From: a virus
Direction: 5' to 3' (one strand)
IMG/VR virus record: IMGVR_UViG_3300020477_001010
Location: 1 to 36,371 of that record
DNA: 36,371 nucleotides
Numbering within the stretch: position 1 is the stretch's first letter; the number at the start of each line of letters is the position of its first letter. Below the pieces are notes generated by a model. It was not told the DNA's origin and searched no databases. It saw nothing but the letters and a program-made list of their open reading frames with translations. The translations under genes were made by a program, and so were the position numbers. Below, piece by piece: positions 27,734-29,142 of this stretch.

Positions 27734-27759
27734 AAACTGCATTTTGAAAGTACAGTAGT

Positions 27760-27769
27760 ATATATATAA
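27760..27769 (+). promoter_or_regulatory. Putative phage promoter box ATATATATAA before the structured RNA
   Basis: Fourth copy of the box, 27 bases after the epimerase stop. No Shine-Dalgarno-led gene follows for over 600 bases; instead a hairpin-rich, GC-raised stretch begins. A direct repeat (ATTTTG(G)AAAGTACAG at 27741-27755 and 27808-27823) flanks the box. Confidence 0.5.
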
Positions 27770-27788
27770 TATCACAAACAAATTTGTG

Positions 27789-27914
27789 ATGCTATTTGAA
27801 AATTGGAATTTTGGAAAGTACAGAGGAGTTGCTAACTCTGTATGGGATTGGCTGAACAATGAGTGGATAAAGAAGCTCATAAGGCAATCTAACCTCAGAT
27901 CTATAGTGGATTGA
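27789..27914 (+). other. Possible 41-codon ORF within the RNA (low confidence)
   Basis: ATG at 27789 opens 41 codons beginning MLFENWNFGKYRG and ending at TGA 27912-27914. It has four Trp and several Lys/Arg, unlike random AT-rich translation. It lacks a Shine-Dalgarno, and its start lies in the 3' arm of the first hairpin. Several helices listed for the RNA fall in it. I regard it as more likely fortuitous than real. Confidence 0.15.
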
Positions 27915-28223
27915 TATTCGGGCGAAATGCACAATATCTTGCGACAGCATTGAGGGTATGTACTTCTAGAAAAACTTAAAGAACAGCGATTCTTTGACCT
28001 TGTTGTGGGTAAGGGTAAAACTGAAACCCCACCAAGCTGGCTGAATAATCCAAACTTAGAGGGATAAGGCTCCTAACAGAGGTTGTGCTCGCTCAGATGT
28101 AAGGTAACACTTATGAGGAGAACTGGCTTAACCGCCGGGTGAAGGGAACAAGGTAGAAAAATCTGAGCTAGAAGTTGTGAGTGATCGCAAATCTCACATC
28201 CCCAAAAATTTCCATAAAACATA

Positions 28224-28297
28224 AGAGCTCTGGCCCGATACATATTCTATATACCAATGATGAAGACGTAAATTATAAATGCTAGAGCTCTTTTTTT
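28224..28297 (+). terminator. Terminator of the structured RNA
   Basis: AGAGCTCTGGC (28224-28234) pairs with GCTAGAGCTCT (28281-28291) in an 11-bp stem with one G-U pair, then seven T. The loop is long (46 bases). It ends the RNA and separates it from the SSB transcript, which has its own box at 28330. Confidence 0.75.
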
Positions 28298-28329
28298 ATA
28301 AAAAAACTTGTTTTTGAAAATGTTATATA

Positions 28330-28339
28330 ATATATATAA
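28330..28339 (+). promoter_or_regulatory. Putative phage promoter box ATATATATAA before the SSB gene
   Basis: Fifth copy of the box, 33 bases after the RNA terminator. The following leader to the SSB start is about 45 bases, AT-rich and without evident structure. An unstructured, AT-rich leader is what a gp32-type protein would bind for autoregulation, as in T4 gene 32; that link is inference. Confidence 0.55.
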
Positions 28340-28383
28340 ACGTATTAAATGAATAATGAACACTTAACTAAGGAGTAATGATA

Positions 28384-29142
28384 ATGGACTTAGACGTAAT
28401 AAAATCCAGGTTATCACAACTACAACAATCAAATCAAAGAACTACAAATCTATGGAAACCCTCACCGGGTAAGACTCAAATAAGAATTGTGCCTTATAAA
28501 TTTAATAAGGATAATCCTTTCATTGAGCTCTACTTCCATTATGATATGGGTGAAAAGAATTATCTTTCACCAATCTCATTTGGTCGTCCAGATCCGATTG
28601 AAGAGTTCGCAACTAAGCTAAAGACTTCTGGTAATAAAGAAGACTATCAGCTTGGTAAAAAAATAGAAGCAAAGATGCGTACCTACGCTCCTGTCATCGT
28701 TCGCGGTGAGGAGAATGAAGGTGTAAAATTCTGGGGCTTCGGAAAAATGGTATATCAGGAATTACTTTCTGTTATCGCAGATCCAGACTACGGTGACATT
28801 ACCGATCCAGTAAACGGTCGTGATATTGTCGTTGAGTTTAAAACTAGCGAAGAAACAGGACGTGCTTTCCCGATGACGACTATCAGGGTAAAACCTAATC
28901 AGACGCCTCTCACAGAGAATGCCGATGTTATGAAAGTAGTAAAGGACACACAACGAAACATCACAGACATCTACACAGAGTTGGAGTACAATGATCTTCA
29001 AAAAGCACTTGAGGCTTGGTTAAGCCAAGAGAATGATGTAGAAGATGATGATGTTGTTGATACTTCAAAGACTACTAAATCAAAAAATGGTCAAGCGACT
29101 GAAGACGTTTCTTCAGCTTTCGAAGATCTGTTTAACTCTTAA
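28384..29142 (+). CDS. 32: Single-stranded DNA-binding protein (T4 gp32-like)
   Basis: I chose ATG 28384 (MDLDVIKSRL, 252 residues) because AGGAG at 28371-28375 is 8 bases away; the ATG at 28378 is only 2 bases away and adds two residues. The protein has the gp32-type core: TQIRIVPYKFN, ELYFHYDMG, and VKFWGFGKMVYQEL. It ends with an acidic tail (NDVEDDDVVD) and VSSAFEDLFNS, the tip that recruits partner proteins. It has no Cys at all, so the gp32 zinc site (three Cys and one His in T4) is lost. It is followed by UvsX with AGGAGG. Its role is to coat ssDNA in replication and recombination. Confidence 0.85.
   Translation: MDLDVIKSRLSQLQQSNQRTTNLWKPSPGKTQIRIVPYKFNKDNPFIELYFHYDMGEKNYLSPISFGRPDPIEEFATKLKTSGNKEDYQLGKKIEAKMRTYAPVIVRGEENEGVKFWGFGKMVYQELLSVIADPDYGDITDPVNGRDIVVEFKTSEETGRAFPMTTIRVKPNQTPLTENADVMKVVKDTQRNITDIYTELEYNDLQKALEAWLSQENDVEDDDVVDTSKTTKSKNGQATEDVSSAFEDLFNS

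Follow-up and report, generated by a model that had tools for sequence, protein, structure and literature searches.

The window analyzed here, a 36,371-nucleotide stretch of DNA from IMG/VR record IMGVR_UViG_3300020477_001010, belongs to an uncultured marine T4-like phage and carries a structured, non-coding RNA of about 400 bases (positions 27803-28214) directly 5´ of the phage gene for the single-strand-DNA-binding protein (SSB). The RNA occupies the intergenic region at 27734-28377, bounded by a gene for a nucleotide-sugar epimerase and one for a gp32-type SSB, the latter followed by genes for UvsX, an exonuclease and a DnaB-type helicase (Table 1). Gene annotation thus confirms the location given in an earlier note made from the sequence alone, which had placed a large RNA gene between epimerase and SSB genes and near replication genes. 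The raised GC content also described there is one-sided, as it holds against the upstream flank (39-45% at 27800-28200 versus 28-33% just upstream) but not against the downstream SSB gene, which itself has 34-43%.

Table 1. Features of the RNA locus, in window coordinates
Feature	Position	Strand	Evidence or pairing partner
Promoter-like box of the RNA (TTGAAA, 17 nt, TAATAT; AT-rich -10 region)	27744-27772	+	9/12 consensus matches
5´ hairpin ATCACAAA/TTTGTGAT near presumed transcript start	27771-27790	+	Sequence
P0, 5´ strand (AT-rich outer helix)	27803-27814	+	Own versus swapped flanks, z 5.1, 0/200 swaps
P1 hairpin, counterpart of manA first hairpin	27819-27842	+	Covariation alignment
P2, 5´ strand (closing helix, GGGAU)	27844-27848	+	Pairs with 28198-28202; 86/86 standard pairs
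Outer manA-like unit, 5´ part, including UGAACAA motif	27844-27969	+	Covariation, covariance-model matches
P3 of outer unit	27859-27864/27875-27880	+	
P4 of outer unit	27892-27896/27952-27956	+	
GUGGUG-type loop hairpin of outer unit	27899-27911	+	
P7, 5´ strand (long-range helix enclosing inner unit)	27962-27969	+	Pairs with 28168-28175
Pseudoknot PK1	27986-27991	+	With 28183-28188 (P8 loop); covariation
Inner-unit closing helix	27998-28003	+	With 28148-28153; covariation
Rfam manA match (RF01745): inner unit and 3´ part of outer unit	28004-28202	+	43.8 bits, model 1-192
Inner manA core: GCUGAAUAA, P3i, P4i, P5i, P6i, last hairpin	28038-28146	+	Model R1
Pseudoknot PK2	28055-28060	+	With 28162-28167
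P8 hairpin of outer unit (manA last hairpin)	28177-28197	+	Covariation
P2, 3´ strand (AUCCC)	28198-28202	+	Pairs with 27844-27848
P0, 3´ strand	28203-28214	+	Own versus swapped flanks, z 5.1
Intrinsic terminator: AGAGCUCU stem, long loop, seven T	28223-28297	+	-18.5 kcal/mol in window
Promoter-like sequence of SSB gene	28310-28345	+	Predicted; shared by close relatives whether or not they carry the RNA
gp32-type SSB gene, next after the RNA	28378-29142	+	Pfam gp32, E 1.8e-13; PHROG SSB

The earlier note had found no gene with a ribosome-binding site that fits the region, and a coding explanation is ruled out: the longest stop-free stretch on the + strand is 37 codons in the window and a median of 36 in relatives, the distance between two conserved blocks occurs in all three frames among relatives, and no reading frame is conserved in the window RNA and its relatives, here called long-form RNAs. 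By itself, the minimum free energy falls short of significance (z -1.75; 5/100 shuffles fold equally well), and the case for an RNA therefore rests on homologues. That z value would suit an AT-poor spacer or decayed gene with chance stems, but the lack of a conserved frame and the covariation described below refute this reading, leaving it a negligible probability.

Pattern scans of IMG/VR together with SSB-anchored scans yielded at least 100 loci and more than 80 homologues of the RNA, including a divergent further member of the long form (L140). At least 17 of 80 SSB-anchored loci carry the RNA, a lower bound since many of these loci are cut upstream, and all 12 long-form records examined have one copy each. 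An alignment of 86 distinct sequences (effective number about 27) gave -141.9 kcal/mol with RNAalifold, of which -79.6 was the covariation share; the strongest covarying column pairs were mostly standard pairs of the model, many of them present in 86/86 sequences with two to five pair types. The final model, with 90 pairs including two pseudoknots, was scored on 28 diverse sequences, giving 98.8% standard cells, 59 pairs changed on both sides and a covariation score of 0.513, compared to 36-45% standard cells and covariation of 0.07-0.09 for slid controls. No shuffle equalled the observed percentage or covariation score. The slid control is biased in favor of the model because the structure was partly derived from the same sequences, but the two-sided changes far exceed what such bias would give. 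The covariation is overwhelming and confirms the large structured RNA initially proposed.

Among single helices, the eight pairs of P7 were each found in 28/28 sequences, with six changed on both sides, and the six pairs of PK2 in 86/86, with two changed on both sides. A helix suggested by RNAalifold near 27988/28160 was dropped for PK1, which covaries better. The possible closing helix noticed at first inspection (27805-27814/28202-28213) is supported as the AT-rich P0. An 8-bp long-range helix read at the same time (28091-28098/28161-28168) could pair in the window, yet relatives do not conserve it, and its bases belong to P6i and PK2 instead.

A blastn search of the window RNA against INPHARED gave short chance matches only, that of one relative's RNA gave no match, and no isolate with the long form was thus found. 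The isolates with the nearest SSB proteins are Microcystis phage Mel-JY01 and the Flavobacterium phages immuto, in which the gap before the SSB gene, only about 110 bp, is too short for the RNA. A single scan of genome contigs also did not find the long form.

The cmscan against Rfam that the earlier note had proposed gave no match at gathering scores for the whole window, in line with its failure to match the RNA to RNase P, tmRNA or an intron. GOLLD and ROOL, which it had mentioned but could not confirm, and OLE did not match either at the gathering score over the whole window or at E 10 over the RNA region. A permissive cmscan of a short stretch, however, aligned the whole manA model (RF01745) to the 3´ half at 43.8 bits (E 6e-10; cut-off 55.2). 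Being below the cut-off, the window RNA is not filed as a plain RF01745 member. Twelve relatives score 40-68 bits against manA and four of them exceed the gathering score (L195, L172, L203 and L183, 64.5-67.9 bits), and thus the family link holds. In the reciprocal direction, a covariance model of the inner core trained solely on long forms (R1) finds 10/10 canonical manA cores tested (E 3e-4 to 6e-10). Together, the RF01745 match, the scores of the relatives and the reciprocal R1 matches identify the inner half as a manA relative. The class of the RNA was therefore only partly unrecognized, as its 3´ half is a divergent manA while the architecture into which this half is built is indeed unrecognized.

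The inner core has no adjoining 5´ closing strand; its closing helix is supplied by the outer unit (P2), and a single contiguous unit with GGGAG/CUCCC next to the core, as expected for manA, is not present in the window. This closing helix covaries, being GGGAU/AUCCC in the window, GGAAU/AUUCC in six relatives and GGGAG/CUCCC in canonical manA. From GGGAU onward, the outer unit runs through RC-UGAAYAA, P3, UAAGG-Y, P4, a hairpin with a GUGGUG-like loop, further hairpins and the 5´ strand of P7, and it resumes 3´ of the inner unit with the 3´ strand of P7, the P8 hairpin and AUCCC. These are manA elements in manA order, and the inner unit thus lies within the loop of the outer helix P7.

The 5´ half is thus probably a second, more degenerate manA unit, a well-supported assignment though weaker than that of the inner half. 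For the outer unit of L200, the sole family match is Rfam manA (26 bits, E 3e-5). R1 gave weak but well-placed matches to outer units (10-18 bits) in 13/15 loci, and R2, the reciprocal covariance model for the outer unit, gave weak but well-placed matches to 8/10 canonical manA cores; the R1 and R2 matches score low individually, yet where they fall is far from random. The low scores of the individual R1 matches, and the absence of any Rfam manA score on the window's own 5´ half, are what one would expect if only the 3´ half were manA and the 5´ half an unrelated domain of chance likeness. We consider this improbable given the L200 match, the good placement of weak matches in both directions, the same elements in the same order as in manA, and a closing helix that joins the 5´ and 3´ ends in manA fashion.

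Rfam and the accessible portions of the papers naming manA describe single units of ~190 nt. Like manA (RF01745; Weinberg et al., 2010, PMC2864571), the inner core and, more weakly, the outer unit have RC-UGAAUAA-stem-UAAGG-Y, P4, the GUGGUG-type loop, the last hairpin and the closing helix, and the long form likewise resides in marine phages and, as do many canonical copies, upstream of gp32. It differs from manA in having two units (~400 nt versus 192), the long-range P7, two pseudoknots, its own terminator before the next gene and a score below the cut-off. The nested form was not found in Rfam or in the available text of open-access papers naming manA. What looks to be new is this nested double manA architecture together with an apparently free-standing transcription unit.

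Several features point to such a unit, with promoters in all cases predicted from AT-rich consensus sequences. The promoter-like box seen in the original inspection is present upstream of the RNA; it is weak alone (5 sites found versus 2.7 expected), and relatives have similar boxes upstream of the RNA. The arms of the 5´ hairpin differ in relatives yet stay complementary at the same place (for example in L195, L208 and L223). The hairpin with seven T, likewise noticed early, was recovered by folding, whereas a simple terminator scan found none because its loops were limited to 3-8; a terminator follows the RNA in 76/85 relatives and is missing in L124. The promoter-like sequence of the SSB gene, 3´ of the terminator, is kept in close relatives that lack the RNA (L128-L130, L135), and within one phage the promoter regions of RNA and SSB are more alike than in swapped pairings (0/1000). 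An ORF of 204-212 aa lies between the RNA and SSB in L305, L292 and L290, and a shorter one in L298, L255 and L238; SSB was not found in the rest of the locus for L252 and L301.

We also observed that in many relatives the terminator stem varies around a conserved interior, TTTTTAGTTTCCAC, which occurs a single time in each of 90 loci (for example L128:2851-2864 and L195:2836-2849) and is present in close relatives without the RNA too; the window terminator does not contain it. In addition, a short hairpin, ATCAAGGTTATACTTGAT, seems to stand at the 5´ end of SSB messages in relatives such as L223 and L211, much as a hairpin does at the start of the RNA gene, and transcripts of these phages may generally begin in this way.

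Of 75 long-form RNAs, 66 lie directly before a gp32-type gene, and all are on the strand of the next ORF. For canonical manA in IMG/VR, 96/100 loci have the downstream ORF on the same strand, and the downstream genes (n = 100) include gp32 (23), transaldolase/F6P aldolase (19), HSP20 (6) and phosphomannomutase (6). Based on these counts, both forms are associated with gp32. In this sample (L002-L121), gp32 is the largest downstream group, ahead of the sugar genes for which manA is named. Where canonical manA precedes gp32 as a leader, 29-55 nt separate it from the start codon, increasing to 82-89 nt with an extra conserved hairpin in between. The accessible portions of the papers naming manA do not state a link to gp32 and contain no demonstrated function for any manA RNA.

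This positioning, with the terminator between RNA and gene, is how a cis-regulatory gp32 leader would be placed, one that might sense a ligand or the SSB protein and control terminator read-through, translation or message stability. The frequent occurrence of canonical manA as a gp32 leader and the missing terminator in L124 likewise count against a free-standing gene. However, we regard a cis leader, the main alternative, as possible but doubtful: the SSB gene has a separate promoter-like sequence, also in close relatives without the RNA; unrelated ORFs intervene in some phages; and no antiterminator signal was detected, with co-variation of the terminator arms and the RNA at 12.86 for own and 12.82 for swapped combinations (89/200 as high). 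For these reasons, together with the terminator of its own, we favor, with a probability of roughly two in three, a free-standing non-coding RNA gene in the phage, equipped with its own promoter and terminator and related to manA by nesting.

Building on the computed fold, its covariation, the manA homology of the inner unit, the terminator and the gene order, we propose that transcription of a ~500-nt gene would start at its own promoter and stop at its own terminator. The inner manA unit would replace the loop of helix P7 of the outer unit, and the two pseudoknots would tie the units together, one joining the inner P3 loop to the P7 junction and the other the stretch after P7 to the P8 loop. 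The RNA would accumulate as a molecule of its own, with timing close to that of gp32, as judged from sequence features. Action in trans is a guess: rather than switching the SSB gene in cis, the RNA might serve as a compact two-site scaffold for the protein or ligand recognized by manA cores.

The autoregulatory pseudoknot of T4 gene 32 is a precedent for a pseudoknotted RNA 5´ of a phage SSB gene, and, as in the T4 gene 32 leader, an A-rich stretch separates canonical manA from the start of gp32. The nested RNA is far larger than the T4 pseudoknot, has another fold and is separated from the gene by a terminator. A speculative extension, to which we assign a low likelihood, is that manA RNAs are gp32-recognition RNAs of marine T4-like phages, the canonical form acting as leaders and the nested form as a separate RNA with two sites, able to bind or titrate, in trans, either SSB or a partner; if so, a leader RNA would have turned into an independent non-coding RNA gene. 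The nested RNA is also large and pseudoknotted like GOLLD and ROOL, which are phage-borne non-coding RNAs, and OLE (PMC12286853), but it has no Rfam match to these, has another fold, adjoins gp32 and is not found in tRNA islands.

Since 2010, manA has counted as an orphan riboswitch candidate. The existence of a nested form suggests that one manA unit can arise by duplication inside another. This form also supplies over 80 sequences that can be aligned, strong covariation and two pseudoknots and, through the tie of both forms to gp32, names a concrete candidate partner, gp32 or the conditions of its synthesis. It offers a clear candidate case of a structured RNA domain enclosed within its own copy, in uncultured marine phages.

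Finally, we noted a small hairpin, GACC-UAAGAUGCA-ACU...AGU-CGGGCAGAU-GGUC, just 3´ of canonical manA in 25/102 loci (for example L016:3494-3526 (+), L040:1157-1189 (-) and L102:9397-9429 (-)). No other Rfam family matches it. The hairpin occurs in 119 IMG/VR stretches. For 72 distinct copies the upstream sequence was long enough to inspect: a manA core precedes 66 of them, and the remaining six come after a 3´ end resembling that of manA. The hairpin appears to be a 3´ module of manA that has not been listed so far.
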